The translations under genes were made by a program, and so were the position numbers. A stretch of 64,000 nucleotides of DNA from Chitinophaga sedimenti (GTDB lineage Bacteria; Bacteroidota; Bacteroidia; Chitinophagales; Chitinophagaceae), in contig NZ_JAKUKA010000001.1 of assembly GCF_023156195.1 (NCBI RefSeq), positions 1,612,001-1,676,000 of the forward strand. The letters are read 5' to 3'. This document shows, piece by piece, positions 24,981 to 59,356 of the stretch; within the stretch, counting starts at the first letter, position 1; the number at the start of each line of letters is the position of its first letter. Under the pieces are notes generated by a model. It saw nothing but the letters and a program-made list of their open reading frames with translations. It had not been told where the DNA came from and did no database searches.

Positions 24981-25067
24981 TTTCGTCGCATCATTTTTCC
25001 AGCCTGCCTCAATTCCCCCTTCACGCGCGAAACCCCGGCGTACTTTTGAGGTCTGAAATACAGACCA

Positions 25068-27649
25068 ATGAAAAAATTACCGCCTTCTTAGCACTCCTTA
25101 TTGCCCCTTACGCGCTTATGGCGCAGATGCCAGGCGGCGCAGGAAAGCAGGCCATGGCCAATATGGGCCATATTTACGGCAAACTCGTTGATAAAGATAA
25201 TAAACCCGTTCCCTACGCTTCTGTCATGGTGATGCAAAGTCGTTTCGACACCGCTACTAAAAAGCAAAAGGACGTGCTTGTAAAAGGAATGGTAACCGAA
25301 ATGAACGGCGACTTCAATTTTGAAGAACTGCCCATCATGGGCATTAAGGTGAAAGTATCGGCCTCCGGCTATAAAGCGTATGAGCAGGCTGTGACTTTCA
25401 TCAACAGGCAGGCTGGCGCCCCTAAACCAGGCAGCATGCCTTCGTTCGACAAAGACCTCGGCAACATTAAACTGGAAGGCAGCGTAAGCCAGCTGAAAGG
25501 CGTGGAGGTAACCGCCAGCAAACCGATAATGACCCTGGATATAGATAAGAAGGTATTTAACGTGGAAAAGAACATCGTAAGTGCCGGTGGTACCGCGGTA
25601 GATGTAATGAAGAACGTGCCTTCCGTAAACGTGGATATCGACGGGAATGTATCGCTCCGCAACAGCGCTCCGCAGCTTTATGTGGATGGGCGTCCCACCA
25701 CGCTTACGCTGGACCAGATCCCGGCCGATGCGATCGAAAGCGTGGAGGTAATCACGAATCCTTCTGCTAAATACGATGCTTCCGGTGGCGGTGCAGGCAT
25801 TTTAAACATTGTACTGAAGAAGAATAAAAAGACCGGCTATAATGGTAACCTGCGTGCGGGTATCGATAAGCGTGGTGCGGTGAACGGCGGTGCAGACGTG
25901 AATCTCCGCCAGGATAAATTCAACTTCTCCGCCAGCTTTAATGCAAACCAGAATAAGAGCCGCACCACGGGATATACCGACCGTAATAACTTCAGCACCG
26001 AACCGGCTATCAACCTGCTGCAGAACAACTATAACCGCCAGAACGGCGCCTTCATGTTCGGCCGCGTAGGTGTCGATTACTTCCTTTCCAACCGCAGTAC
26101 GATTTCGCTTTCCGGTGTAAAGGTGCATGGCGAGTTTAAACCCGACGACGAGAATGAAATTACGACCGACAGCCTGTTCGGCACCGGCACCCTGTCATCT
26201 TTCAGCCGCCGCTCCACAGAAGGCAAACGCGAATTCAACGCAAACGGCCTGGTGTTGGGCTTCAAGCAACTGTTTCCCCGCGAAGGTGAAGAGCTGACGG
26301 CCGATTTCAACTACTTCGGCGGTAAAAACGAAAACCGTTCTTTCTATAATACGGATTACTTCAACGGCGGTGCGAAAAGTGCCTACGAACTGCAACGCAT
26401 CTTAGGCGACGGCAAAATGAGTAACATTACGATCCAGACTGACTACGTTCGCCCGATCGCCAAAACAGGTAAGCTGGAAACCGGTCTCCGGCGCAGCTAC
26501 GTACAACCGAAAACAATAACTACAACTACATTTTTGACCAGAATGCCGATGAATACACGCTCATCCCCAGCACGAGCAGCAACTATAAGAACAACGACAA
26601 TGTATATGCGGCTTACGTGAGCTTTTCTAATTCTATTGGCAAGTTCGGTTATAAAGTAGGACTGCGCGGCGAAAGTTCTGAATATAAAGGTGAACTGACG
26701 CAAACCGGTGAAAAGTTCAGCAACAGCTACCCGGTAAGCCTCTTCCCTTCCCTGTTCCTGAGCCAGAAACTAAATAAGGACCGGGAGCTGCAGTTGAGCT
26801 ATACCCGCCGTGTAAACCGTCCGAACTTCTTCCAGCTGATCCCGTTTGCGGATTCTACCGACAGGTTGAATATCACCCGCGGTAATCCGAACCTGGTGCC
26901 GGAGTTTACTCAGTCGCTCGAAGCGTCTTACGCCAAAACATTTAACGCGAATCACAGCCTGTTGGGTTCTGTCTACTTTAAACACACGGACGATCTCATC
27001 ACCAGTTACCTGGAAAAAGTAACCGATGATGCCACCGGTTCAGAAGCGCTGATCAACACCTTTACCAACGCGAATTCTTCTTATTCCTACGGTACGGAGT
27101 TAACGCTGATCAACAAGCTGACCAAGTGGTGGGATATCAGCACCAGCGTGAATCTCTACAACTCGAAAATCAATACAGATAATGTAAGCGGCTCTTCGCA
27201 GGATGCGATGTGGAGCATGTTCGGCAAGTTTAACAGCAACTTTAAACTGCCCGCTTCCTTCGATGTGCAGCTGTCGGCCACCTTCCAGTCGAAAACCAAC
27301 CTGCCGATCAACAACAACCCGCGCGGGTTTGGCGGTCCCGGTATGAGCCAGGCGCAGACTGCTGCCCAGGGGTACATTAAAGCCTTTGGTGGCGTAGACC
27401 TGGCCGTGAAAAAGAGCTTCCTGAAAAACAATGCGCTATCCGCCACCTTAGCGGTAAGCGATATTTTCAGAACGATGAAAACGATCCAGTATTCCGAAAG
27501 TGAGTACTTCACACAGTACTACTCGCGCCTGCGCGATCCGCAGATGCTGCGCCTGACATTGGCTTACCGTTTTGGCAAAGTAGATATGTCGCTCTTTAAA
27601 CGTAAGAGCCCAGGGCACCGGAAACAGTGGTATGGAAGGGATGCAGTAA
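25068..27649 (+). CDS. TonB-dependent-receptor-like outer-membrane beta-barrel protein (frameshifted)
   Basis: About 860 residues after repair. The likely start is ATG 25068 with one more A in the following A6 run, giving MKKITAFLALLIAPYALMAQ, a signal peptide. Next come a carboxypeptidase-regulatory-like domain (IYGKLVDKDNKPVPYASV), a plug-like region (KVFNVEKNIVSAGGTAVDVMKNVPSVNVD, QLYVDGRPTTLTLDQIPADAIESVEVITNPSAKYDA) and an outer-membrane barrel of the PF14905 type. Other breaks: about 26510 (one base short, then TENNNYNYIFDQNADEY) and about 27609, where GCCCAGGG has one C too many (CCAGG), after which the frame ends GNSGMEGMQ at 27649. Substrate unknown. Confidence 0.88.
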
Positions 27650-27741
27650 ACCGATTCAACATGACCAGTTTATAGATTGATATAAAGCGCCGCCCCGGAT
27701 TGCCGGGGTGGCTTCCTTCAACAATGCTAAAGGATGATTGA

Positions 27742-40568: not shown

Positions 40569-43500
40569 ATGAGAAAATTTTTACTCCTATTGACCCTGCT
40601 TGCGTGCACCTTTTTGGGAGCGTCGGCGCAAAACAACGCGAGACTTACCGCGCCGCGAGATGTGTGTAAGAAGAATTTCGTGACGATGCATGCTTATCAT
40701 AGCAACAACGCCTCGATCAATCGCGTTGAATGGTATATTACGCCTGTTGGCATGCCTACATTTACTATTACCACCAGCTCTACAGTTGGTGTAAATGGTT
40801 TACGGGCAATCCTCACCAGCGGGCGGTCCATTACCATAGATATGTTGCAGGACGTGGCTTACTATACCATTACAGCAAGAATCTTCAGGGACGCCACTAC
40901 CACAAACTATACAAATACGGACCCCGTTCGTATTAATCTGTATGATTGTGAAATCACAGAATGTAAAGGCAGTTTCCAGTCTTCGTCGAACTTCAAAGAA
41001 ACGTTCGGAACATTTACGGCTGGTGAAGGGCGACGTTGTATTGTGAACCCTCCTGCCCCGGCGCCCCAGATCATCAACTACAACTGTAACACAACATCGC
41101 CGCTCACGGATAACGACTACAACATCTACTGGAATACTAATGATGGCGGACGAACCGAATGGGCTTCCTCTACTGACCACACCGGCGATACCCGGGGTGG
41201 CATGTTGATTTGTAACTCGTCTTATGATGCCCGGCGTTTTTACCGCAAAGAAATAACAGGCTTGTGTCCCGGTGCAGTATATAACTTTACCGCCTGGTTC
41301 CAGAACCTTGATGGAAAGGGTGTATTGGAAAGCACTTGTCGTAATGATTATATTTATACTGGTGTAACATTTAATGTATACACCACTACCAACCTTACCA
41401 CACCGATCGCCACGTTTAACACGTACGCAGTATCCGCGAACCTGGAGAACGACGCCTCCAAAAAATGGGTGAAATTCGGTGGCAGTATCCGCCTGGCTCC
41501 TGGCCAGGAAAGCCTGGTACTTACCATCGATAATAACTTCCCCGGTGGTTGTGGTAACGATATCGCGATTGACGATATCTCTTTTGAGTATTGTGCACCT
41601 AAAATTTTCTCATATATTGATGGTCTGAAGAGCGACAGAGATGCAATTTGTCAGGGCGCTCCTATCCGACTCACTTCCGAGATCGATCCGATTAACTACT
41701 TCCAGGACCCGCTGTACCAATGGCAACGCCAGAATGTGGCGACCAGTGTTTGGTCTCCGGTATCCGGCCCGGGATATACCGGCGAAAACACACCTACATT
41801 AAATATTGCCGCCGGCGTGCTCACCACGGTGGGCATTGAACGTTACAGGCTGATGATATATGAACGCGGTAACGAAAACGCCGCGAACTGTTATACGCCA
41901 GGTAACCAGGTAGAGCTAACGATCCTGGAAAAGCCCGTCATATCGTTTACGGCCCCCTTTATATGTTTGGGGCAAAAAACAACGCTACAGGTAAATCCGG
42001 GTACATACGATATCTATAATTTTACAGGACCCAACCTTATTGCGTTGGGCGGCCCCAATTATAACAGGATCGACGCCCAGCCCACCACTACTTCAGATTA
42101 TATAGTGGAAGCGGTGGCTAACTATGGCAATGGTAAAACCTGTTCGTCGTACGATACGGCCACCCTGCGAGTCGATACGATGCCAAGGTTGAACCTTGGA
42201 CCGGATACGGCCATTTGTGTGGGCAATACGATTACGCTGGACATGGGCTCCAGTAATGCGGCGTTTGATATGCGCTGGACCGGGGGCTCCATCGGCACCG
42301 TATTAGGACAATACCTGACGCTTACACCCACCGTGGCAGGTAATACAACGTACACGGCGGCGGTAAAAAACAACGCTTGTAACATCACTGACAACATTGT
42401 AGTAACAGCCATGAATCCGCCTACGGCGAAAATCTCGACTGCTTCACAATCGTTATGTGGCGCTACAGAATTAGCGATCGCTGCCAATAACCCGCCGACT
42501 AACCAACGTGGCACATGGTCATTTGTAGGTGATCCTCACGGCGCTACGTTCCTCAACGCCAATTCGTACAGCACAAGAGTGCAGAATCTGCCGGTGGGCG
42601 AAACCATCACAGTGCGCTGGACGGTAGGTTATACTGCTATTAGTGGTTGTGTGTCTTACGACCAGATCACTATCCGCAATGTAGCGCCTCCGAAAGCTGC
42701 CAACGCCGGACCTTCACAAACGGTATGCGGCATTAATACTATTACCCTGGCTGGCAATGCGCCTTCACCGAATGAATATGGTACCTGGTCCTCTTCGACA
42801 GCCGGCGTGACGTTCAGCAACGTAAATGATCCGAACGCAACGATGACCTACAGCGGTTCGTTGCCAGGACGGGCATTTCTGTTACCCGGAGATTGCGCGA
42901 TACAGCCAACGTGTGTACCGCTACAACGGCAAGCGTAACGCATAATCTGCTGGCGGCTCCCAGCCTTACAGTAATTGCGGCGCGGGACACTTGTTCCACT
43001 ACAGGTTTATTCCGCCTGCAGGTATCAGTAAGCGGCGCACCCGACCGTTACTCGATCACGGCCACGGGTGCTAACCCGATGCCCGGATTCGCGGACATCG
43101 TGGACCAGGTATTGGCTAACGGCACTACGCAGCTGCTCGTACCTTTTCCAAATACAGTTGATTCCGGTACCTACACCTTCCAGATGTCTGTAAGACATTC
43201 TGCAGGTTCAAATACTTCACCTTCTGTATGTACCTCTACCCAGAACTTTACCGTTCGGATCCTGAAACCTTCGCAGCTCGATTCTATCAGCCCATCGATG
43301 ACTACGATCTGTAACGGCTCCAGTGCTACACTGATTGCCTACGGTTATAAATCACCGGGCGCAGTATGGAGATGGTACCGTTCTTCCTGTGGTGGTACGC
43401 TGGTAGCGACGGGTGACACAATTACAGTGGCGCCAACTGCTACGACTACCTATTATGTAAGAGCGGAAGCGGGTACCGCTTGTCCGGCCACTACATGTTT

Positions 43501-46500
43501 GACTGTTACAGTAAACGTGGATCCCATGCCGCTCAAGCCGTATGCTGGCGCGGACCAGGCGTTGTGTAACGCAACTGTGTTCACCACTGCAGCTACTTAT
43601 ACCAGCAGTGCGACTGCAGGTATCTGGTCACAGCCGGCTGGTGGTACTGCGGTGTTCACAAATCCGAATATTAATATTACTACAGTCACAGGCATTGCGC
43701 CGGGCACCTCTGCTACACTCATCTGGAGCGTAGTACGCGGCGCTTGTACCTCCCCTGCCGATACGGTTATCTTTACCAACCTTGCTCCAATCGCCAACAA
43801 TACGATCGGCCCGAACCAGGTAATTTGTCTTGGCTCCCCTGCTGCCGCCATTGGCATGCCTGCCGGTTCGCCAACAGGTGGCAATGGTACCTATACCTAC
43901 CAATGGTATTCTTCTCCAAATGGAGTGACCAGCTTTACCTTGATTTCGTCTGCGACCGGTGCGACCTACAATCCGGGTTCGATTACTACGACAACCTACT
44001 ACCGTCGTGTGGTAACTTCTGGTTGTACAAGCACGAGCAACGTGGTACAGATCAAAGTAGCGAGAAACGCCCCGGTTGTGGCCAGCACGCCACCTGCGGT
44101 AACCGTTAACTGTGTGACTGGTACTGACTATACGACCAATTTTGGCACGCCAACCTTTACACATGCAGATAATATTCCGGTAACTGTCACCTATAGCGAT
44201 GCTACTACCACCGCTGGTTGTAACAGCGTGATCACCCGTACCTGGAGAGCGACCGATTCCTGCGGAAGATATGTTGAAACTTCCCAGGCGGTAAATATCC
44301 AGGATACCACCAAACCTGTATTTAATGGCAGCAGACCTGCTGATGCGACCGTAGATTGTGACGCTATTCCTTTGCAGCCGGACATGACCGCTACTGATAA
44401 CTGTAGTGTGGCTACCGTTACGAAGCACGAACGGACGCAGGCAATTGCCGGATCTGCCTGCGCATCTAACTACCAGATCATCCGTACCTGGATTGCAGCA
44501 GACGCCTGCGGCAACAGGGATTCTGTAGTACAGACCATCACTGTACAGGATACTACCAGGCCGACCTTTACGACTCCTGCTCCGGCAGATACGACCGTAC
44601 AATGCAGCGCCATTCCTGCACAGCCTGACCTGACGGCAAGCGACAATTGTACACCTGCGGCCGGCATTGTGATTACTAAGAGAGAGCGGATTGAGCCTGC
44701 AACCGGCTCAACCTGCGCTAATAATTACACACTGGTGCGTACTGGATCGCACGTGACCTTTGCGGTAACGTAGATTCAGTGGTGCAGCGTCTCCATGTAA
44801 TCGATACTACCCGACCTGTGTTTACCACTGCTGCTCCGGCCAACGTCATTGTAAACTGTGACGCCATTCCAACGCAGCCTGTTCTGACCGCAACCGACAA
44901 CTGTAGCGCGCCGGCTAATATAACCGTGGTGGCTACCCAGCGCCGCGAAGAAGTAGCCGGTGGTTGTGCAAACACCTACCGCTTAGTGCGTGTGTGGACT
45001 GCAACCGACGAATGTGGTAATATTGATTCCGTTCGCCAGATCATCACTGTTCAGGATACTACCCTTCCTGTATTTACCACTGCTGCCCCAGCCGACGTTA
45101 CCCTGAACTGTGACGTTCCCCTGCCAGCACAGCCTACACTGACCGCTACCGATAACTGTAGCGCGCCTGCGAATATCACTGTTGTAGCAACACAGCGCCG
45201 CGAAGACATCGCCGGTGCCTGCGCGAACAACTACCGCATCATCCGCGTATGGACTGCGACAGACGAATGTGGCAACACCGACTCTGTACGCCAGATCATC
45301 ACCGTACAGGATACTACCCGTCCTGTGTTTACCACTGCTGCTCCTGCCGACGTTACTATGAACTGTGACGTTCCGCTGCCAGCTCAACCGACGCTGACCG
45401 CTACGGATAACTGTAGCACACCTGCCAACGTAACAGTTGTAGCAACGCAGCGTCGCGAAGACATCGCCGGTGCATGCGCTAACAACTACCGCATCATCCG
45501 TGTATGGACTGCGACCGACGAATGTGGCAACACCGACTCCGTACGCCAGATCATCACCGTACAGGATACTACCCGTCCGGTGTTCACTACCGCTGCTCCG
45601 GCTAACATCACTGTTGATTGTGATGCTGTTCTGCCCACTCAGCCGACGCTGACCGCTACTGACAATTGTAGCGTGCCTGCAAACGTGACTGTTGTTGCAA
45701 CACAGCGTCGTGAAGATATCGTCGGTGCATGCGCTAATAACTATCGCATCATCCGCACCTGGATCGCGACCGACGAATGTGGCAACACTGACTCCGTACG
45801 CCAGATCATCACCGTGCAGGATACTACCCGTCCGGTGTTTACGACAGCCGCTCCGGCTAACGTTACCATGAACTGTGACGTTCCGCTGCCAGCTCAACCA
45901 ACACTGACCGCTACCGATAACTGTAGCGCACCAGCCAACTTAACCGTGGTAGCAACACAGCGTCGTGAAGACATCGCTGGTGCTTGCGTAAACAACTACC
46001 GTATCATCCGCACCTGGATCGCGACCGACGAATGTGGCAACACCGACTCTGTACGCCAGATCATCACCGTGCAGGATACTACCCGTCCTACCTTTACCAC
46101 CGCTGCTCCCGCAAACATCACTGTCAATTGTGATGCCGTGCTGCCTGCTCAGCCGACGTTGACCGCTACAGATAACTGTAGTGCACCTGCCAACGTAACG
46201 GTTGTAGCCACACAGCGTCGCGAGGACATTGCTGGTGCATGTGCCAATAACTACCTGATCATCCGCACCTGGATCGCCACCGACGAATGTGGTAATATGG
46301 ACTCCGTGAGCCAGATCATCACCGTGCAGGATACTACCCGCCCTGTGTTTACCACTGCTGCTCCGGCTGACGTTACTATGAATTGTGACGTTCCCCTGCC
46401 AGCTCAACCAACGTTGACCGCTACCGACAATTGTAGCGCGCCTGCTAACGTAACAGTTGTAGCAACACAGCGCCGCGAAGACATCGCCGGTGCCTGCGCG

Positions 46501-49500
46501 AACAACTACCGTATCATCCGCGTATGGACTGCGACCGACGAATGTGGCAACATTGACTCTGTGCGGCAGATCATCACCGTACAGGACACTACCCGTCCGG
46601 TATTCACTACCGCTGCTCCGGCCAACGTTACTATGAACTGTGACGTTCCGCTGCCAGCGCAACCGACGCTGACCGCTACCGACAACTGCAGTGCACCTGC
46701 CAACGTAACAGTTGTAGCAACGCAGCGTCGCGAAGACATCGCCGGTGCCTGCGCTAACAACTACCGCATCATTCGTGTATGGACTGCGACCGACGAATGT
46801 GGCAACACCGACTCAGTACGCCAGATCATCACCGTGCAGGATACTACCCGTCCGGTGTTCACGACTGCTGCTCCGGTTAACATCACTGTCGATTGTGATG
46901 CTGTTCTGCCCACTCAGCCGACGCTGACCGCTACTGACAATTGTAGCGTGCCTGCAAACGTGACTGTTGTAGCCACACAGCGTCGTGAAGATATCGCCGG
47001 TGCATGCGCTAATAACTATCGCATCATCCGCACTTGGATCGCCACTGACGAATGTGGCAACACTGACTCCGTACGCCAGATCATCACTGTGCAGGATACT
47101 ACCCGTCCGGTGTTTACGATAGCTGCTCCAGCTAACGTTACCATGAACTGTGACGTTCCGCTGCCAGCGCAACCAACATTGACCGCAACGGATAACTGTA
47201 GCGCACCTGCCAACGTAACCGTGGTAGCAACACAGCGTCGTGAGGATATACACGGTGCTTGTGTAAACAATTACCTGATCATCCGTACCTGGATCGCGAC
47301 CGACGAATGTGGTAACACAGATTCTGTTCGCCAGATCATCACAGTGCAGGATACTACCCGTCCGGTGTTCACCACTACAGCCCCGGCCAACGTTACTATG
47401 AACTGTGACGTTCCGTTGCCAACACAGCCAACGCTCACCGCTACCGATAACTGTAGCGCGCCTGCCAACGTAACGGTTGTAGCTACACAACGTCGTGAGG
47501 ACATTGCTGGTGCTTGTGTAAACAACTACCTGATCATCCGCACCTGGATCGCCACCGACGAATGTGGTAATATGGACTCAGTGAGCCAGGTCATCACCGT
47601 GCAGGATACTACCCGCCCTGTGTTTACCACTGCTGCTCCGGCTGACGTTACTATGAACTGTGACGTTCCGCTGCCTGCACAACCGACGCTGACCGCTACC
47701 GACAACTGTAGCGCGCCTGCTAACGTAACAGTTTTAGCAACACAGCGCCGCGAAGACATTGCCGGTGCATGCGCGAACAACTACCGTATCATCCGCGTAT
47801 GGACTGCGACAGACGAATGTGGCAACACAGACTCTGTACGCCAGATCATCACCGTACAGGACACTACCCGTCCGGTATTCACTACCGCTGCTCCGGCCGA
47901 CGTTACTATGAACTGTGACGTTCCGCTGCCAGCGCAACCGACGCTGACCGCTACCGACAACTGCAGTGCACCTGCCAACGTAACAGTTGTAGCAACGCAG
48001 CGTCGCGAAGACATCGCCGGTGCATGCGCTAATAACTACCGCATCATCCGTGTATGGACTGCGACCGACGAATGTGGCAACACCGACTCTGTGCGCCAGA
48101 TCATCACGGTGCAGGATACTACCCGTCCGGTGTTCACGACTGCTGCTCCGGCTAACATCACTGTCGATTGTGATGCTGTTCTGCCCACTCAGCCGACGCT
48201 GACCGCTACTGACAATTGTAGCGTGCCTGCAAACGTGACTGTTGTTGCAACACAACGTCGCGAAGATATCGCCGGTGCATGCGCTAATAACTATCGCATC
48301 ATCCGCACCTGGATCGCGACCGACGAATGTGGCAACACAGACTCTGTTCGCCAGATCATCACCGTTCAGGATACTACCCGTCCGGTGTTTACGACAGCTG
48401 CTCCGGCTAACGTTACCATGAACTGTGACGTTCCGCTGCCAGCTCAACCAACACTGACCGCTACCGATAACTGTAGCGCACCTGCCAACGTAACCGTGGT
48501 AGCAACTCAGCGTCGTGAGGATATACCTGGTGCTTGCGTAAACAACTACCGTATCATCCGCACCTGGATAGCGGCCGACGAATGTGGCAACACCGACTCT
48601 GTACGCCAGATCATCACCGTGCAGGATACTACCCGTCCGACCTTTACCACTTCTGCGCCTGCAAACATCACCGTGAATTGTGACGCTGTGCTGCCAACAC
48701 AGCCAACGCTCACCGCTACAGATAACTGTAGTGCACCTGCCAACGTAACGGTTGTAGCCACACAACGTCGTGAGGACATTGCTGGTGCTTGTGTAAACAA
48801 CTACCTGATCATCCGCACCTGGATCGCCACCGACGAATGTGGTAATATGGACTCTGTGAGCCAGGTCATCACCGTGCAGGATACTACCCGCCCTGTGTTT
48901 ACCACTGCTGCTCCGGCTGACGTTACTATGAACTGTGACGTTCCGCTGCCAGCTCAACCAACACTGACCGCAACCGACAACTGTAGCGCGCCTGCCAACG
49001 TAACCGTAGTAGCAACACAGCGCCGCGAAGACATCGCCGGTGCCTGCGCAAACAACTACCGCATCATCCGCGTATGGACTGCGACAGACGAATGTGGCAA
49101 CACAGACTCTGTGCGCCAGATCATCACCGTGCAGGATACTACCGGTCCGGTGTTCACGACCGCTGCTCCGGCCGACGTTACTATGAACTGTGACGTTCCA
49201 CTGCCAGCACAACCAACATTGACCGCTACCGACAACTGCAGTGCGCCTGCCAACGTTACCGTTGTAGCAACACAACGCCGTGAAGACATCGCCGGTGCAT
49301 GCGCAAACAACTACCGCATCATCCGCGTATGGACTGCGACAGACGAATGTGGCAATACCGACTCTGTACGCCAGATTATCACGGTACAGGACACTACCCG
49401 TCCGGTGTTCACTACCGCTGCTCCAGCTAACGTTACCATGAACTGTGACGTTCCGCTGCCAGCACAGCCGACGCTGACCGCTACCGACAACTGTAGCGCA

Positions 49501-52500
49501 CCTGCTAACGTATCGGTTGTAGCAACACAACGTCGCGAAGACATCTCCGGTGCATGCGCTAATAACTACCGCATCATCCGCACCTGGATCGCCACAGATG
49601 AATGTGGTAATATGGACTCAGTGTACCAGATCATTACGGTACAGGATACTACCCGTCCGGTGTTCACTACCACCGCTCCGGCTGATATCACAGTAGATTG
49701 TGACGCAGTACTGCCGACTCAACCGACGCTGACCGCTACCGATAACTGTAGCGCACCAGCCAACGTAACCGTGGTAGCAACACAGCGTCGTGAAGACATC
49801 GCTGGTGCTTGCGTAAACAACTACCGTATCATCCGCACCTGGATCGCGACCGACGAATGTGGTAACACAGATTCTGTACGCCAGATTATCACCGTTCAGG
49901 ATACTACCCGTCCGGTGTTCACTACCACCGCTCCGGCTGATATCACTGTAGACTGTGACGCAGTACTGCCGACTCAACCGACGCTGAGCTACCGATAACT
50001 GTAGCGCGCCTGCCAACGTAACGGTTGTAGCCACACAGCGTCGCGAGGATATTGCTGGTGCATGTGCCAATAACTACCTGATCATCCGCACCTGGATCGC
50101 CACCGACGAATGTGGTAATATGGACTCTGTGAGCCAGGTCATCACCGTGCAGGATACTACCCGCCCTGTGTTTACCACTGCTGCTCCGGCTGACGTTACT
50201 ATGAATTGTGACGTTCCGCTGCCAGCTCAACCAACGCTGACCGCAACCGACAACTGTAGCGCGCCTGCTAACGTAACAGTTGTAGCAACACAGCGCCGCG
50301 AAGACATCGCCGGTGCATGCGCAAACAACTACCGCATCATCCGTGTATGGACTGCGACAGACGAATGTGGCAACACAGACTCTGTACGCCAGATCATCAC
50401 CGTACAGGACACTACCCGTCCGGTGTTCACTACCACTGCTCCGGCCGACGTTACTATGAACTGTGACGTTCCGCTGCCAGCACAACCGACGCTGACCGCT
50501 ACCGACAACTGTAGCGCACCTTCCAACGTAACAGTTGTATCAACACAACGCCGCGAAGACATCGCCGGTGCATGCGCTAATAACTACCGCATCATCCGTG
50601 TATGGACTGCGACAGACGAATGTGGCAATACCGACTCTGTACGCCAGATTATCACGGTACAGGACACTACCCGTCCGGTGTTCACTACCGCTGCTCCAGC
50701 TAACGTTACCATGAACTGTGACGTTCCGCTGCCAACACAGCCGACGCTGACCGCTACCGACAACTGTAGCGCACCTGCTAACGTATCGGTTGTAGCAACA
50801 CAACGTCGCGAAGACATCTCCGGTGCATGCGCTAATAACTACCGCATCATCCGCACCTGGATCGCCACAGATGAATGTGGTAATATGGACTCAGTGTACC
50901 AGATCATTACGGTACAGGATACTACCCGTCCGGTGTTCACTACCACCGCTCCGGCTGATATCACAGTAGACTGTGACGCAGTACTGCCAACTCAACCAAC
51001 GCTGACCGCTACCGATAACTGTAGCGTACCTGTCAACGTAACCGTGGTAGCAACACAGCGTCGTGAAGACATCGCTGGTGCTTGCGTAAACAACTACCTG
51101 ATCATCCGTACCTGGATCGCGACCGACGAATGTGGCAACACCGACTCTGTACGCCAGATCATCACCGTGCAGGATACTACCCGTCCGACCTTTACCACCG
51201 CTGCTCCCGCAAACATCACTGTCAATTGTGATGCCGTGCTGCCTGCTCAGCCGACGTTGACCGCTACAGATAACTGTAGTGCACCTGCCAACGTAACGGT
51301 TGTAGCCACACAGCGTCGCGAGGACATTGCTGGTGCATGTGCCAATAACTACCTGATCATCCGCACTGGATCGCCACCGACGAATGTGGTAATATGGACT
51401 CCGTGAGCCAGATCATCACCGTGCAGGATACTACCCGCCCTGTGTTTACCACTGCTGCTCCGGCTGACGTTACTATGAATTGTGACGTTCCCCTGCCAGC
51501 TCAACCAACGTTGACCGCTACCGACAATTGTAGCGCGCCTGCTAACGTAACAGTTGTAGCAACACAGCGCCGCGAAGACATCGCCGGTGCCTGCGCGAAC
51601 AACTACCGCATCATCCGCGTATGGACTGCGACAGACGAATGTGGCAACACCGACTCTGTGCGGCAGATCATCACCGTACAGGACACTACCCGTCCGGTAT
51701 TCACTACCGCTGCTCCGGCCAACGTTACTATGAACTGTGACGTTCCGCTGCCAGCGCAACCGACGCTGACCGCTACCGACAACTGCAGTGCACCTGCCAA
51801 CGTAACAGTTGTAGCAACGCAGCGTCGCGAAGACATCGCCGGTGCATGCGCTAACAACTACCGCATCATCCGTGTATGGACTGCGACCGACGAATGTGGC
51901 AACACCGACTCAGTACGCCAGATCATCACCGTACAGGATACTACCCGTCCGGTGTTCACTACCGCTGCTCCGGCTAACATCACTGTCGATTGTGATGCTG
52001 TTCTGCCCACTCAGCCGACGCTGACCGCTACTGACAATTGTAGCGTGCCTGCAAACGTGACTGTTGTTGCAACACAGCGTCGTGAAGACATCGCCGGTGC
52101 ATGCGCTAATAACTACCGCATCATCCGTACCTGGATCGCCACCGACGAATGTGGTAATACGGACTCAGTGAGCCAGATCATCACCGTACAAGACACTACC
52201 CGCCCGGTGTTCACAACCGCCGCTCCGGCTGATATCACCGTAGACTGTGACGCAGTACTGCCGACTCAACCGACGCTGACCGCAACGGATAACTGTAGCG
52301 CACCTGCCAACGTAACCGTGGTAGCAACACAGCGTCGTGAAGACATCGCTGGTGCTTGCGTAAACAACTACCGTATCATCCGCACCTGGATCGCGACCGA
52401 CGAATGTGGTAACACAGATTCTGTACGCCAGATCATCACCGTTCAGGATACTACCCGTCCGGTGTTCACCACTACAGCCCCGGCCAACGTTACTATGAAC

Positions 52501-55500
52501 TGTGACGTTCCGTTGCCAACACAGCCAACGCTCACCGCTACCGATAACTGTAGCGCGCCTGCCAACGTAACGGTTGTAGCCACACAGCGTCGCGAGGACA
52601 TTGCTGGCGCTTGTGTAAACAACTACCTGATCATCCGCACCTGGATCGCCACCGACCAATGTGGTAATATGGACTCAGTGAGCCAGATCATCACCGTGCA
52701 GGATACTACCCGCCCTGTGTTTACCACTGCTGCTCCGGCTGACGTTACTATGAACTGTGACGTTCCGCTGCCAGCACAACCAACGCTGACCGCTACCGAT
52801 AACTGTAGCGCGCCCGCCAACGTAACCGTAGTAGCAACACAGCGCCGTGAAGACATCGCCGGTGCCTGCGCAAACAACTACCGCATCATCCGTGTATGGA
52901 CTGCGACAGACGAATGTGGCAACACAGACTCTGTACGCCAGATCATCACCGTACAGGACACTACCCGTCCGGTGTTCACTACCGCTGCTCCGGCCGACGT
53001 TACTATGAACTGTGACGTTCCGCTGCCAGCACAACCGACGCTGACCGCTACGGATAACTGTAGCACACCTGCCAACGTTACCGTAGTAGCGACCCAACGC
53101 CGTGAGGATATTGCCGGTGCCTGCGCGAACAACTACCGCATCATCCGTGTATGGACTGCGACCGACGAATGTGGCAACACAGACTCTGTACGCCAGATCA
53201 TCACGGTACAGGATACTACCCGTCCGGTGTTCACGACTGCTGCTCCGGCTAACATCACTGTCGATTGTGATGCTGTTCTGCCCACTCAGCCGACGCTGAC
53301 CGCTACTGACAATTGTAGCGTGCCTGCAAACGTGACTGTTGTAGCCACACAGCGTCGTGAAGATATCGCCGGGGCATGCGCTAATAACTATCGCATCATC
53401 CGCACCTGGATCGCCACTGACGAATGTGGCAACACTGACTCCGTACGCCAGATCATCACTGTGCAGGATACTACCCGTCCAGTGTTCCACTGCCGCTCCG
53501 GCCGACATCACAGTTAATTGTGACGCAACGCTGCCTGTACAACCAATGCTGACTGCTACCGACAATTGTAGCGCACCGGCCAACCTGGTTGTAACAACCA
53601 GCGAACGCCGCGAAAACATAGCTGGCGCCTGCGCGAACAACTACCGTATCATCCGTATATGGACCGTAACAGACGAATGCGGCAACATGGATTCTGTACG
53701 CCAGATCATCACCGTACAGGATACCACCAGGCCAACATTCAATATGCCGGCACCGGCGAACATGACCGTGGATTGCGATAAGGTGCCTGTACAGGAAGAT
53801 CTGACCGCTACCGACAACTGCGCCGGAAACGTAGTTGTTGTGAAAGACCAGCGTATCACACCGATCCCCTGGCCGTTGCGAAAACAACTACCTGATCGTA
53901 CGCACCTGGACCGCGATCGATGAATGTAATAATACCACGACGATCACCCAGACAATTACAGTGATCGACACAACAAGACCGGTGTTTAATGTGGCCATTC
54001 CTGCCAACGTTACAGTGGATTGTAATGCAGTGCCTGCTCAGCCGACACTGACCGCAACCGACAACTGCAGCCCGGATAAGGTAACAGTTACCATGAACGA
54101 GCAGCGTGTTAATCAGCCTGGCGCTTGTGCCAACAACTACCAGCTGATCCGCACCTGGACTGCCACCGACATCTGTGGTAATGTAACAGTGGCAACGCAA
54201 ACCATTACCGTACAGGACACAACAAGGCCGGTATTTACAAGCGTCACTCCTGCCAATGTAACCGTGGAATGCGATGCTGTTCCTGCTCAGCCCGACCTGT
54301 CTGCGACAGACATCTGCAGCCCCGGTGGTGTAACGGTAACGAAAGCTGAACAACGCATCGACCAGCCTGGCGCTTGTGCGAACAACTACCAGTTGATCCG
54401 CACCTGGACCGCCACCGATGAATGTGGCAACAGCACCACCGTAACACAAACCATTACTGTTCAGGATATGACGAAACCAAGATTCACGATGGCTATTCCA
54501 AGGGATACTACTGTGAACTGTGACGCCATCCCTGTACAGCCGACGCTGACCGCTACCGACAACTGTAGCGCGCCTGCGAACTTAATAGTTACCATGAACC
54601 AGCAGCGCGTAGACATCGCCGGTGCATGTGACAACAACTACCGTTTGTTACGTACCTGGACGGCTACTGACGAATGTGGTAACTTTACTACTGCCCTGCA
54701 GATCGTAACCGTACAGGATACCACCAAACCGGTATTCACCACGCCGATACCTGCAGACGTGACAGTGAATTGCGGTGCAGTACCAACACAGCCTGACCTG
54801 GCAGCTTCCGACAACTGTTCGCCGCTCAACCGCGTAACGGTAGTGAAAACGAACAGCGCGAAGAAATCAGCAACGCTGTATGCGCTGGCACTTACCGCCT
54901 GATCCGTACATGGACCGCCCTCGACCAGTGTGGTAACATGACCGTCGCGAAACAGATCGTAACCGTACAGGATACAACAAGGCCGGTGTTTACTTCTCCG
55001 ATTATGAGGGATACTACGGTGAACTGTAACGAAGTGCCAACATGGCCTGTAGTTACCGCCACCGATAACTGTAACCCGAATGGCGTAACGATCACCACCA
55101 GCCAGACCAAACAGTTCCTCAGTGCTACCTGCAGCAACAACTACAGGTTGATCCGCAGGTGGACCGCAAAAGACGAATGTGGTAACACCGCTATCATGCA
55201 ACAGATTATTACTGTTCAGGATACGACAAGGCCAACATTCTCGATCGCTGCACCAAGAGATACCATGGTGAACTGTGAGGCAGTTCCTGCCCTCCCGGTT
55301 GTAACTGCTACCGACAACTGCAGCGTAAACAGTAAAGTGAAACTGACGCAGACACAGGTAAGGGAAAATATTCCGAACTCGTGCAACTACCGGTTGATCC
55401 GCACCTGGACCGCTACGGACGAATGCGGCAACTACAGTACCATGCGCCAGGTAATCACAATACAGGATACAACAAGGCCAGTAATCGCAGCAGCTCCGGC

Positions 55501-57316
55501 TAATGTCACCGTGACCTGCCAGCAACCGATACCGGCAGCACAGGTACTGCGCGCCACCGACAACTGTGACGCCAGCTTCCCGAAAAACGCGATCATGACA
55601 ACCGATCCGTTCGTAGCGGATATCTGTAACGGTTACACCATCACCAGAAGGTGGAATGTGACAGACGCCTGCGGTAACAGAGCCGAAGAGCGCGTACAGG
55701 TAATCACGATCATGCCGTGTCCGAAACCACAGCTGAAACCGAGCCTGCCACGCAACTGTTCGAACGATCCGTTCTTCAACATTGAAACAGTAAGTCCTGT
55801 GACCAACCCGACTTACATCCTGGTAGGTGTTACTCCTTCCAACGCCGTAAGAACACCGTTGTCGCAGACCAGCAACCGCTTCAACCTGAACGGCGCAACA
55901 TCTGCATCCTTCATAGTAAGAGACGGTGTGACAGGTTGTGCTTCCGACACCATGACTTACCAGCTGAATTACATCCAGACACCGGTTGTAAACCTCGGCA
56001 AAGACACCAGCATCTGCGGTGGCAACGGTATAGTCCTCGATGCGGGCGCCAACAACTATAACAACATGATCCTCTGGAGCACAGGCGCGACCACTCAGCG
56101 TATCAGTGTTCAACAGGCAGGTACTTACTGGGTGCAGGTGACCAACGGCAGCTGCGTAGCCAGGGATACGATCAAAGTGGCCCTGATTCCGATGCCGCTC
56201 ATTAATCTGCCGGATACGACTATCTGTCGCGGCCAGTCTGTAAGACTGAATGCCACTGTAACCGGAGCCACTTATCTCTGGAGCACAGGCGCTACCACAC
56301 CATCCATCAATGTAAGTACACAGGAGCGCTTCTGGGTACGTGTGATGAAAAACGGTTGCATCACCATTGATACGGTGAACGTAACGGTCAATCCTCCGCC
56401 AGACATCACCCTCCGATCAGATACCACTATCTGCCCGGGTCAGTCAGTGGTACTGTCTGTAAGCTCTAATGCAAGCCGCATCCAATGGGTTACCGGTGAA
56501 ACAGGCAACTCCATTGTAGTGAGCAAAGCCGGTAACTACTGGGTAGCTGTAACCAGGGACCAATGCGTGGTAAGAGATACCGTGATGGTGAAAATGAGGC
56601 AGCCGGTTAAATTCGAACTTGGACCAGACAGGATCATCTGCCCTGACGGTCGCTTCACGATCGACGCCCGTACAGCCGATGCCGCCACTTATCTCTGGAA
56701 CGATGGTGACCGCAGCCCGATCAAGTCGATCGACAGAGCCGGAACCTACATCCTGAGCATTATGGACAAGTACTGTTACGATGTGAAATCAGACAGCATC
56801 AAGGTAAGAGTAGCCGGTGCACCGAAAGTAAGCCTGGGTAACGACACCATGATCTGCCGTGGCCTGACTTACACCATCAAGCCGAAATTGCTCGAAGATG
56901 CCACACACATACGCTGGAGCAATGGCCAGACAGGTCCAAGCATCAATGTAACCGAACCAGGTACCTACACGGTAACGGCTTACAACGATTGCGGCAGCAC
57001 CACTGATGAAATCGTGGTTGACTTCATGGAATGTGAAAGCAAACCTGATATTCCAAATGCCTTCTCTCCGAACGGCGACGGACGAAATGACATCTTCCGC
57101 CCGGTAGTGAGAGGCCCGATGTACGACTACGAATTGCGCATCTTCAACCGTTGGGGTCAGATCGTGTTCATGTCGAAAGACCTCCACAAGGGATGGGATG
57201 GCACCTTTAAAGGCAAACCAGTAGACAACTCCACTTTTGTTTGGTGGATGAGTTATAAAAAGGTTCAGAACGGACCAGTATTTATACTGAAAGGCGAAGT
57301 AACCGTGATTCGCTAA
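40569..57316 (+). CDS. Giant T9SS-secreted repeat protein with hyalin-like (HYR) domains (frameshifted)
   Basis: About 5,584 residues after repair. Order: signal peptide (MRKFLLLLTLLACTFLGASAQ); a beta-sandwich, lectin-like region (about 120-340); Ig/PKD-like domains to about residue 1,150; HYR-like units, of which 35 consecutive ones (44803-53719) follow two diverged ones and precede about seven more to 55700; five Ig-like repeats of the LG-x-D-x-x-IC...LWSTGATT type (55980-57010); a T9SS type B sorting domain (IPNAFSPNGDGRNDIFRP, YELRIFNRWGQIVF, YKKVQNGPVFILKGEV). Each unit has four Cys, so two disulfides are likely. Breaks: about 42866, 44742, 49987, 51366, 53487, 53870 and 54848; four are at CCWGG. 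Probably a surface adhesin, matrix or gliding protein. Confidence 0.92.
44803..53719 (+). repeat. 35 tandem 255-bp units with a five-unit higher-order period
   Basis: Unit starts (GATACTACC) lie at 44803, 45055, then every 255 bases from 45310, apart from small local losses. Units 2-34 are near-identical. Each encodes 85 residues from DTTRPVF through DNCSAPANVTVVATQRRE and DECGNTDSVRQ to IITVQ. Sub-types recur every fifth unit: RVWTATDE pairs at units 2-3, 7-8, 12-13, 17-18, 22-23, 27-28 and 32-33; CGNMDSVSQ at units 6, 11, 16, 21, 26 and 31; SVPANVT at 4, 9, 14, 29 and 34. The period is thus 1,275 bp, about 6.6 copies. Confidence 0.95.
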
Positions 57317-57408: not shown

Positions 57409-57921
57409 TTACTTCACCCAATCGCGGTAGTGGCTGAGCATCGTGAATTGATCTCTGCCGCTTTGGTAATAAAAGCTGGAGGAATAGGCATAATCCGCGG
57501 CCGTTCTGCAAAGCCGCCAGCGTGCCGCCAAGGGATTGTTGTGCATCAGCTGCAGGTATTGTAACATTTCGGGCATGCTGTTTACTTGCGTGGTCCTTGC
57601 CGGTAATTCCCATATGCATCCATCCTCATTTTCTAATGGCACCACCTCATCCAGCAATAGCGGTTGCTCGCATCGCAACAAGGCATACAGGGCCCGCCCC
57701 GCGGATGCCAGTAAGCTATCCAATGCCGGACCGGGCTTCAGTTGTTCTATTAAAAGATGGAAGTGATCGGGCATTATGACATACCCGTAAATACGCAGCT
57801 GCTTGCGATCGTATAAAGATTGCATGTACCGGATTAACACGTGCTTGTTCTGATCGGCTGCAAAGATGGGCTGCCCGTTACGGACAGCTACCGTACAATA
57901 GTAGATTTTTCTCGTTTTCAT
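57409..57921 (-). CDS. REP-associated tyrosine transposase (RAYT)-like Y1 transposase
   Basis: 170 residues, intact. MKTRKIYYCTVAVRNGQPIF is the usual first strand. The metal-binding H-x-H motif stands in YGYVIMPDHFHLLIE, the Y1 transposase signature. The C-terminal part has LQYLQLMHNNPLAARW and YAYSSSFYY, matching the Y-x-x-x-NP and YxxSS blocks of this single-domain class. These enzymes are related to IS200/IS605 transposases but are usually immobile, single-copy and associated with REP palindromes. No flanking IS ends are seen; an 11-bp direct repeat (57984-57994, 58006-58016) lies just upstream. Confidence 0.88.
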   Translation of the reverse strand: MKTRKIYYCTVAVRNGQPIFAADQNKHVLIRYMQSLYDRKQLRIYGYVIMPDHFHLLIEQLKPGPALDSLLASAGRALYALLRCEQPLLLDEVVPLENEDGCIWELPARTTQVNSMPEMLQYLQLMHNNPLAARWRLCRTAADYAYSSSFYYQSGRDQFTMLSHYRDWVK

Positions 57922-58082: not shown

Positions 58083-59320
58083 CTAGTACAGCAACCGCGT
58101 TTTAATGGTATGCGGCACTTCCTTCAGCAGTGCAAACGCTTCCTGCGACAGTTCCGAATCTACGTCCAAAACAACGTAACCAATAGCTTCGTTCGTTTTC
58201 AGGTACTGGCCAAGGATATTGATTTTGTTCTGGGACAAAGCAGTGTTTATGGCGGACAGTACACCCGGTACGTTCGCATGCACATGAAGGATACGATGCG
58301 TATTTTCTACTGCCGGAATGCTGATGGCCGGGATGGTATGTGAACCAAAGCTTGCGCCTTTTTCCAGGTAGTTCAGCATTTTTGCGCTCACGTCCAACCC
58401 GATATTAAACTGCGCCTCTTCTGTGCTGCCACCAATGTGCGGGGTGAGGATAACGTTAGGCAGTTTCTGCAGCGGCGTGCTGAATGCTGCACCGTTTTTC
58501 TCAGGCTCAACCGGGAATACGTCGATCGCGGCGCCGGATAGTTGTCCGCTCACCAGTGCATCTTTCAGGTCTTCCAGGTTCACCACTTCGCCGCGGGCGT
58601 AGTTGATGAAGATCGCGCCCTTTTGGCATATTGCAGGATCTCTTTATCGATCATGTTTTCGGTGCGCTGTGTAGACGGCACGTGCAGGGTAATAATATCT
58701 GACTTACCGAAGAGTTCCTTCAGCTGACGTTCCTGTACAGCGTTACCCAGCGGTAGCTTGGTCTCTACATCATAATAGATCACGTTCATGCCCATCCCTT
58801 CGGCGAGCACGCTTACCTGGCTGCCGATGTTGCCATAGCCCACGATTCCCAGGGTTTTACCACGCAGCTCGAAGCTTCCGGTGGCTTCTTTCTTCCAGAT
58901 ACCTTCGTGAGCGGCAGCATTTTTGTCCGGGATGCGGCGGATCAACATAATAGAAAGGCCGATCACCAGTTCGGCAACGGATCTTGTATTGGAGTAAGGT
59001 GCGTTGAATACCGCGACCCCCGACTTGGTGGCAGTTTTCAGGTCTACCTGGTTGGTACCGATGCAGAAACAACCAATGCCCTGTAATTTGTTAGCCGCTG
59101 CAAGTACAGCCGGCGTTACCTGCGTTTTCGAGCGGATGCCCAGCAGGTGTACGTCCTTGATCTCGCGCACCAGTTCTTCCTCACTCAGCGCGCCTGTCAA
59201 TCTTTTTACGTTTGCATAGCCGGCATCCTTAAACTCGTTGGCTGCTGCCTCGCTAATGTTCTCCAGGAGTAAAATGTTAATCTTTTCCTTCGGATAACTG
59301 GTTATTTTACGTTCACTCAT
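58083..59320 (-). CDS. serA: D-3-phosphoglycerate dehydrogenase (frameshifted)
   Basis: About 412 residues after repair, from ATG 59320 (MSERKITSYPKEKINILLLE). The first catalytic/NAD domain has LLGIRSKTQVT and GCFCIGTNQVDL; the NAD loop is GIVGYGNIGSQVSVLAEGMG. An A is missing at about 58622 (A4 to A5), after which AIFINYARGEVVNLEDL, VILTPHIGGSTEEAQ and the C-terminal ACT domain (HVHANVPGVLSAINTALSQNKINI) follow. It oxidises 3-phosphoglycerate, the first step of serine synthesis; the ACT domain suggests feedback by serine. Confidence 0.94.
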
Positions 59321-59356
59321 ATTGAAAGGGTATCTTAATTTCAAAACGTCCAAAGC

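Follow-up and report, generated by a model that had tools for sequence, protein, structure and literature searches.

A five-unit higher-order repeat in the gene of a predicted giant surface protein of Chitinophaga sedimenti and its probable upkeep by exchange of multi-domain blocks

How does a tandem array lying within a protein-coding gene come to repeat at two levels, and what keeps the higher level in register? The question is raised by a gene of Chitinophaga sedimenti located in a stretch of 64,000 nucleotides (assembly GCF_023156195.1, contig NZ_JAKUKA010000001.1, positions 1,612,001 to 1,676,000 of the forward strand), which is called the window here and is numbered from its first letter. 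At 44803-53721 the gene, whose product is predicted to be a giant surface protein, carries a tandem array of 35 units of about 255 bp each. Tandem Repeats Finder (TRF) called it as 255 bp x 35.0 at 44803-53728, and with periods up to 2000 the period of 255 was its sole entry for the array. The units are 72-100% identical overall (rounded). The initial annotation had described them as an HYR array in an open reading frame, built as a five-unit higher-order repeat with the layout of alpha satellite and grown by duplication of whole five-unit blocks.

The identity matrix of the 35 units bore out the five-unit period. By gapped alignment the mean DNA identity was 0.831, 0.818, 0.818 and 0.829 at lags of one to four units, 0.905 at lag 5, 0.826 at lag 6, and 0.891, 0.878 and 0.903 at lags 10, 15 and 20; the value at lag 5 (90.5% against 82-83% at lags 1-4) was reached by 0 of 100,000 permutations of the unit order. 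An ungapped autocorrelation was replaced by this gapped unit alignment, its signal fading with lag through frame-breaking indels. With units 2-34 assigned to slots modulo five, same-slot identity averaged 0.910 (93 pairs, lowest 0.812) and different-slot identity 0.827 (435 pairs, highest 0.933, which overlaps the same-slot range), and the nearest unit lay at a multiple-of-five distance for 32/33 units. The named sub-types sit in their slots as claimed, RVWTATDE being present in all units of both RVW slots (7/7 and 7/7) and otherwise in unit 1 alone, SVPANVT in 5/7 units of its slot, CVNNY in 6/7 of its own slot and 3/7 of the next, and CGNMDSVSQ in 6/7 of its slot. This order is kept over units 2-34, or about 6.6 cycles, and units 1 and 35 are the diverged ends. 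The array thus combines a fixed monomer order with copies one block apart that are closer than neighbours, and by its lag profile and long exact tracts the likeness to alpha satellite is that of a genuine higher-order repeat.

All 24 exact repeats of at least 90 bp in the array lie at lags of 5, 10, 15, 20 or 25 units. A pair of units has on average 21.8 positions of exact 50-bp match at lag 5, 15.6 at lag 10 and 16.6 at lag 15, against 0.0-0.2 at all remaining lags between 1 and 14 (units 1, 21, 26 and 35 were left out of the tract and codon statistics). The ends of the exact repeats are scattered over many positions within the unit, which fits recombination and not the shuffling of domains at their boundaries. 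Units 24 and 19 are 99.6% identical, as are units 26 and 6 at aligned bases, and the latter near-identity means that exchange also happened across four cycles; exact tracts at lags 20-25 are as long as 243 bp. The array is a mosaic with exchange at these longer multiples (lags 20 and 25) overlaid, and not a product of simple serial duplication. Growth by blocks therefore stands as the exchange of whole multi-unit blocks, for which colinear blocks beyond 2000 shuffles and 15/15 pairs of relatives speak (below), and falls as serial duplication.

We consider it probable (about 0.82) that the array belongs to an adhesin stalk that grows and shrinks by in-register homologous exchange of multi-domain blocks. 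The array, a string of HYR_4C immunoglobulin (Ig)-like domains, would be the stalk that a giant protein exposes on the cell surface after export through the type IX secretion system (T9SS), and homologous exchange between misaligned copies of the gene, on sister chromosomes or within one chromosome, would add, remove or overwrite whole multi-domain blocks. A five-unit block would have been duplicated at some point, and afterwards only same-slot units would share exact stretches long enough to recombine, so that later exchanges would fall in register at multiples of five and keep the pattern alive. The register would be kept because exchange needs long exact stretches and would pair almost only same-slot units; the exchange itself may be RecA-type homologous recombination curbed by mismatch repair. 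In a toy simulation with untested rates, single-unit steps gave a higher-order repeat in 1/160 runs, and homology-dependent multi-unit exchange with uniform block sizes gave one in 34, 23, 27 and 13 of 40 runs under four settings, the arrays of the uniform model being more diverged (mean identity 0.30-0.69) than the real array. A first simulation was mutation-saturated and uninformative.

The age of the slots was approached through the nearest relative, genome G068 (locus L128), whose C-terminus is 90% identical to that of the window gene and which the C-terminal tree joins to it with support 95. Both genes have 46 units, and end units 1-3 and 39-46 pair one-to-one between them; this comparison numbers the window units from the end units, WIN_u27/u22 being units 24/19 and WIN_u29/u09 units 26/6. 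The core units are nearest within their own species (mostly 0.91-0.996) and reach 0.71-0.78 to G068, whose core gave no unit-by-unit alignment with the window core at the threshold used, so the slots appear to have been formed or rewritten after the two lineages split. The totals of 46 units are equal though the cores look independently rewritten, for which coincidence and size control are both possible. It is doubtful, in this light, that the clade inherited its five-unit order from a common ancestor, with later homogenisation inside the slots. Such descent would explain why two genes joined in the tree both have a five-unit structure and 46 units, and units of one window slot often match the same G068 unit (e.g. 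24 or 5), in which a weak old correspondence is possible; but the best cross-species identities lie barely above the mean of the core units to the G068 core (~0.68-0.76) with no slot pairing visible, and the third clade member, G015, lacks a dominant block lag, although, as a metagenome assembly, it may be collapsed.

The same dating bears on selection as the source of the period. If five domains made up one structural or binding repeat whose order is selected, the strict order over 6.6 cycles would follow, and the slots do differ at some amino acids. The slot differences are, however, mainly synonymous (proportion of synonymous differences, pS, 0.509; of nonsynonymous differences, pN, 0.056), and the ratio of nonsynonymous to synonymous rates (dN/dS) does not rise between slots (0.069, against 0.076 within slots). 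The Gst between slots is comparable for the two classes of codon position, with 0.495 for third positions and 0.53 for positions 1+2. Mainly silent differences point to history under purifying selection and argue against a functional five-domain module, as do the formation or rewriting of the slots since the split from G068 and the homologs of the same gene, which show period 5, 6, 7 or a mixture, in some not evident at all. We regard such a module as very unlikely.

As assembled, the array does not lie in one open reading frame, contrary to the earlier claim: the frame shifts near 42860, 44745, 49988, 51373, 53487, 53880 and 54870. These breaks are very probably assembly indels, because rpoB of the same genome (G000:C1:6163801-6167571) is likewise matched in seven pieces with changing frames, because neighbouring genes are also split into several frames, namely a serA-type gene (58083-59353, minus strand) and an outer-membrane barrel gene (25046-27675, plus strand), and because unit 26, so close to unit 6, holds a break. 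The completeness of the genome is 80.5%. The gene of G068 is one unbroken frame of 5,566 amino acids (aa) on a single contig, the longest frame among the genus matches has 7,452 aa, and in another incomplete assembly (G092, 65%) the array region falls into 12 frames. An error-rich genome with many frame breaks, and draft contigs of relatives that often end inside the gene, could raise the suspicion that long-read looping or collapse made the regular array. This is scarcely credible: same-slot units of different cycles differ by ~9% on average and hence are not copies of one read loop, G068 with its single contig and intact frame has a 5/6-unit structure of its own, and the single-contig relatives G025, G076 and G008 show a like order. 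Besides, the window assembly seems rich in indels, so that pseudogene calls in this genome are unsafe. Draft contigs often begin or end inside or near the gene (L168, L169, L170, L172, L175, L176, L177, L179 and others); drafts break and may collapse there and are to be read with care.

A search of the 79 genomes of the genus (own included) with the C-terminal region as probe gave a match in 79/79. Forty-six loci were read, 24 with six HYR_4C units and 22 expanded with 16-70. Colinear blocks above all 2000 shuffles were found in 12/22 expanded arrays, at lags 5, 10, 20 and 25 in the window (WIN), mainly 6 in L108, 5 in L128, 7 and 13 in L129, 13 in L130, 7 in L131, 6 in L132, 7 and 6 in L134, 6 in L136, 6 and 12 in L137, 6 in L138 and 6 in L144. 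This colinearity statistic, which is not independent of the first look at the data, was added because the local contrast statistic is weak where periods 6 and 7 mix (L108 p 0.12, L129 p 0.51, L130 p 0.30, L132 p 0.21, L138 p 0.61); local contrast peaked at lag 7 in L146 (p 0.024) and was not significant in L106, L110, L105, L133, L153 and L167, while L156 and L158 had too few units. L104 did not exceed the shuffles, although every one of its 17 exact repeats falls at a lag of 5 or 10. One homolog, L137:30-7198 (G078), has three levels, a unit of ~265 bp, a dimer of 531 bp and a hexamer of 1,593 bp, with dimers nested in hexamers. The homologs with six HYR_4C units have amplified a different Ig-like repeat of the gene, several of them again in long blocks, which TRF gave as 1,074 bp x 7.4 in G090, 1,815 bp x 5.9 in G081 and 1,329 bp x 7.2 in G019, with 4, 7 and 5 domains per block as counted by eye in the translations.

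Periods were also read from exact 20-mers in 78 loci, of which 20 were dropped for having less than 12 kb in view and 7 more for fewer than 300 pairs, leaving 51 informative homologs, the window included, that belong to related lineages and are not independent. Dominant lags of 1, 2, 4, 5, 6, 7 and 13 monomers were found in 12, 3, 7, 10, 7, 11 and 1 loci, respectively; the lag was thus at least 4 in 36/51 and 1-2 in 15/51, and none of the 51 had a dominant lag of 3 or 8-12. A strict criterion, under which the dominant lag had to reach at least 1.3 times the value of each lag from 1 to 3, was passed by 30/51. A tree of 49 rows, with 2 of the 51 left out, calls for a minimum of 23 changes of period and of 10 switches of the multi/single state. 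Other higher-order arrays of HYR_4C type occur at L114:12917-16037, L121:10052-12455, L102:7615-12487 and L094:8800-11274 (p 0.003-0.04), and comprise two-unit arrays (~480 bp) in two genus loci, a six-unit array in a Saprospiraceae metagenome-assembled genome (MAG) and a four-unit array in a Chryseobacterium MAG.

Among homologs with a dominant lag of at least 3 monomers, 35/36 fall at lag 4-7 (~1.0-1.85 kb), and of the simulated higher-order repeats 19/34, 10/23, 20/27 and 6/13 had a period in this range. The narrower spread of the real homologs hints at a preferred block length of ~1.0-1.85 kb, a hint weakened by their relatedness and by the different tests, simulated repeats having been judged by mean identity and real loci by exact 20-mers. 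We put forward only tentatively, as possible but doubtful, that a block of this length (4-7 domains) holds genus-wide whatever the domain type, and that a physical length scale of recombination or replication, e.g. Okazaki fragments or single-strand gaps, would set the period. The narrow band and the wider spread of the uniform-block simulations would also suit replication slippage, not homologous recombination, as the process that adds blocks, with block length set by replication (e.g. Okazaki fragment length). Slippage is nevertheless unlikely, given the relatedness of the lineages behind the band, the 2-unit (480 bp) blocks of other genus arrays, and the exact tracts at lags 20-25, which suggest exchange over 5-6 kb.

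If blocks are exchanged in register, array lengths may be expected to differ in whole blocks. One genome per species was compared and the species of the window is represented by one genome, the steps being seen between sister species. G080 with 46 units and G025 with 52 correspond one-to-one apart from six contiguous units, and G076 with 55 and G062 with 62 apart from seven contiguous units. G025 and G076 are single contigs; G062 is a draft and yet the longer member of its pair, so that collapse does not explain the seven-unit gap. The wider set comprised 43 pairs with C-terminal identity of at least 0.88, of which 5 lacked an N-terminal anchor and 3 a block length; of the resulting 35 ratios, 15 came from pairs sharing the dominant block lag and 20 from pairs that do not, a grouping made post hoc. 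In 15/15 anchored pairs with a shared block lag the length difference came to none, one or two whole blocks, with no ratio more than 0.09 away from an integer (-0.021, -1.029, -1.013, -0.995, 0.987, 0.018, 1.929, -0.972, 0.945, 1.917, -0.002, -1.008, 0.996, 1.992, -0.015), where a whole block would be expected in ~1 in 4 to 7 if any whole-monomer step were equally likely. The 15 pairs are drawn from six sets of closely related species, and differences other than zero occur in four of these sets. Copy number thus differs by whole blocks in relatives that have the same gene and share its block lag, and growth and shrinkage through the putative exchange of whole multi-unit blocks are well supported.

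Several observations weigh against this reading. Collapse in drafts would also remove whole blocks; the comparisons among G090, G074 and G030 are those of single contigs. The nearest relative, G068, is equal to the window in total and shows no visible block step. No block structure above all shuffles was found in 8/22 expanded arrays, and 2/22 were too small to test. Exact tracts of at least 90 bp occur at other lags too, e.g. lags 1-5 in L144 and lags 1 and 2 in L128, and the strongest local contrast of L128 is at lag 11 (p 0.042), not 5. Pairs that do not share the block often differ by non-whole blocks (15/20; signs omitted: G019/G018 3.37, G079/G007 0.29, G067/G096 3.18, G063/G096 1.19, G090/G085 0.85, G074/G085 1.84, G066/G085 0.87, G080/G076 1.50, G076/G025 0.43, G059/G019 1.75, G002/G019 4.20, G002/G034 4.32 and G019/G034 0.10, and, in 267-bp monomers, G059/G018 8.12 and G018/G034 17.37), the other ratios being near-whole (G059/G002 2.01, G002/G018 0.02, G067/G010 4.00, G063/G010 2.01, G014/G082 3.02). 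In G070/G072 the total lengths are nearly equal despite a six-unit gap in the aligned part, the first array units being unaligned. Whole arrays also seem to be replaced, as in G018/G019. The genes of G019 (L147, 5,804 aa) and G018 (L149, 4,303 aa) have C-termini that are 99.8% identical and amplified arrays of different domain types.

With regard to the gene product, the units are Ig-like domains as annotated, but of the HYR_4C family (PF23237) and not of classical HYR (PF02494). HYR_4C matched 44779-46353 with 1.9e-39 and 134.1 bits against a Pfam gathering score of 27, and 40/41 of its matches in the genome were above this cut-off, with 41/41 within the window gene. In four segments of the gene that were compared with Pfam, PF02494 was absent from the matches at E <= 0.001, and a profile search of the whole genome with it gave none, as did the control searches; the classical HYR identity was dropped. 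The C-terminus carries a T9SS type B sorting domain (PF13585, 8.2e-16; TIGR04131, 53.5 bits, cut-off 35), and the sole Pfam entry for the N-terminal part at 40569-42935 is Ig_7, whose score falls slightly short of the cut-off (25.8 vs 27.3). Proteins with T9SS type B sorting are described (PMC9143113) as exported and anchored at the surface via a PorP/SprF-like partner. The AlphaFold2 model of units 7-11 (predicted local distance difference test, pLDDT, 91.8; predicted template modelling score, pTM, 0.57) shows Ig-like beta domains strung one after another, that is, a rod of tandem, highly similar folded domains whose inter-domain angles are uncertain and not to be trusted at this pTM. Foldseek placed cadherins at the top, a bacterial RTX adhesin at rank 31 and SraP at rank 50, with low TM-scores (0.15-0.38), as expected for flexible multi-domain chains; searching solved structures with the unit sequence turned up no useful hit beyond one weak match (E 1.3). 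A predicted giant surface protein, T9SS-exported and with a stalk of Ig-like domains, is the best reading of these features, and the protein is probably an adhesin. The features are collected in Table 1. Directly downstream of the array gene lies a REP-associated tyrosine transposase-like gene (57409-57921, minus strand; 55.6 bits, below the curated cut-off of 80).

Table 1. Coordinates of the array gene and its parts in the window
Feature	Position	Strand	Remarks
Whole gene, giant T9SS type B-sorted protein (predicted)	40569..57316	+	seven frame breaks as assembled; gene bounds approximate
Three HYR_4C-like end units before the array	44060..44802	+	one-to-one nearest to G068 units 1-3
Unit 1, diverged first unit, 252 bp	44803..45054	+	
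Cycle 1, units 2-6	45055..46329	+	
Cycle 2, units 7-11	46330..47604	+	AlphaFold2 model, mean pLDDT 91.8
Cycle 3, units 12-16	47605..48879	+	
Cycle 4, units 17-21	48880..50152	+	frame break in unit 21
Cycle 5, units 22-26	50153..51426	+	frame break in unit 26
Cycle 6, units 27-31	51427..52701	+	
Partial cycle 7, units 32-34	52702..53466	+	
Unit 35, diverged last unit	53467..53721	+	carries frame break
Eight non-amplified HYR_4C-like units	53722..55711	+	one-to-one nearest to G068 units 39-46
C-terminal region, probe for relatives	55736..57313	+	match in 79/79 genus genomes (own included)
CHU_C / T9SS type B sorting domain	57047..57265	+	PF13585, TIGR04131

Arguments about the origin of higher-order repeats usually draw on the satellites of eukaryotes, noncoding DNA that is difficult to manipulate. 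In the present case such an architecture resides in one identifiable bacterial gene with a match in all 79 genus genomes searched, with dominant periods mostly of 4-7 and whole-block differences between close species, and a culturable Chitinophaga could allow direct measurement of whether slot divergence locks the register. A surface protein may in this way lengthen or shorten by large steps of fixed size, here 425 residues, instead of domain by domain. If the idea of a physical length scale is true, a prokaryotic gene would offer a testable model for the formation of satellite-like higher-order repeats.

The comparison with known systems rests on the accessible parts of the sources cited. Higher-order repeats are known from alpha satellite and from the human NBPF/Olduvai triplets (PMC9584774, PMC11675761), in which, as in the window array, diverged monomers in fixed order are repeated as blocks. 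Unlike these, the window array is prokaryotic and fully coding, with a divergence of ~9% within and ~17% between slots. The contrast between same- and different-slot monomers is stronger in alpha satellite. Eukaryotic domain repeats expand several domains at a time, e.g. nebulin by seven (Bjorklund 2006, PMC1553488), and resemble the window array in multi-domain duplication, often inside the array, and in an autocorrelation peak at block size. Such expansion is described there as mainly eukaryotic, with few repeat proteins in some prokaryotes, and the part seen shows no bacterial higher-order period; for the gene studied here, by contrast, homologs differ in period. Among bacteria, DDxP modular RTX proteins are large proteins with step-wise growing arrays, as in the window protein, and vary in length between isolates; the insertion of modules at target sites has been proposed for them (PMC7730722), whereas the pattern of the window array points to homologous block exchange, no search for insertion signatures having been made. 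A literature search, with most subscription papers outside it, found no higher-order repeat in a bacterial gene in the material available. Periscope Proteins are length-variable bacterial surface proteins with, like the window protein, a surface stalk of near-identical folded domains, and the change in their repeat number is attributed to homologous recombination (PMC8201768, PMC9704523). They are also marked by a ligand-binding domain at the far end of the stalk and by a repeat number that differs among strains of a species; in the gene studied here the number differs between sister species. No higher-order register is named for them in the accessible text, whereas in the window gene, with its T9SS sorting, a multi-domain block appears to be the unit of change. 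Block expansion and length-variable bacterial surface proteins are thus already known, and, as far as these sources reach, the higher-order register in a bacterial gene appears to be the new aspect.

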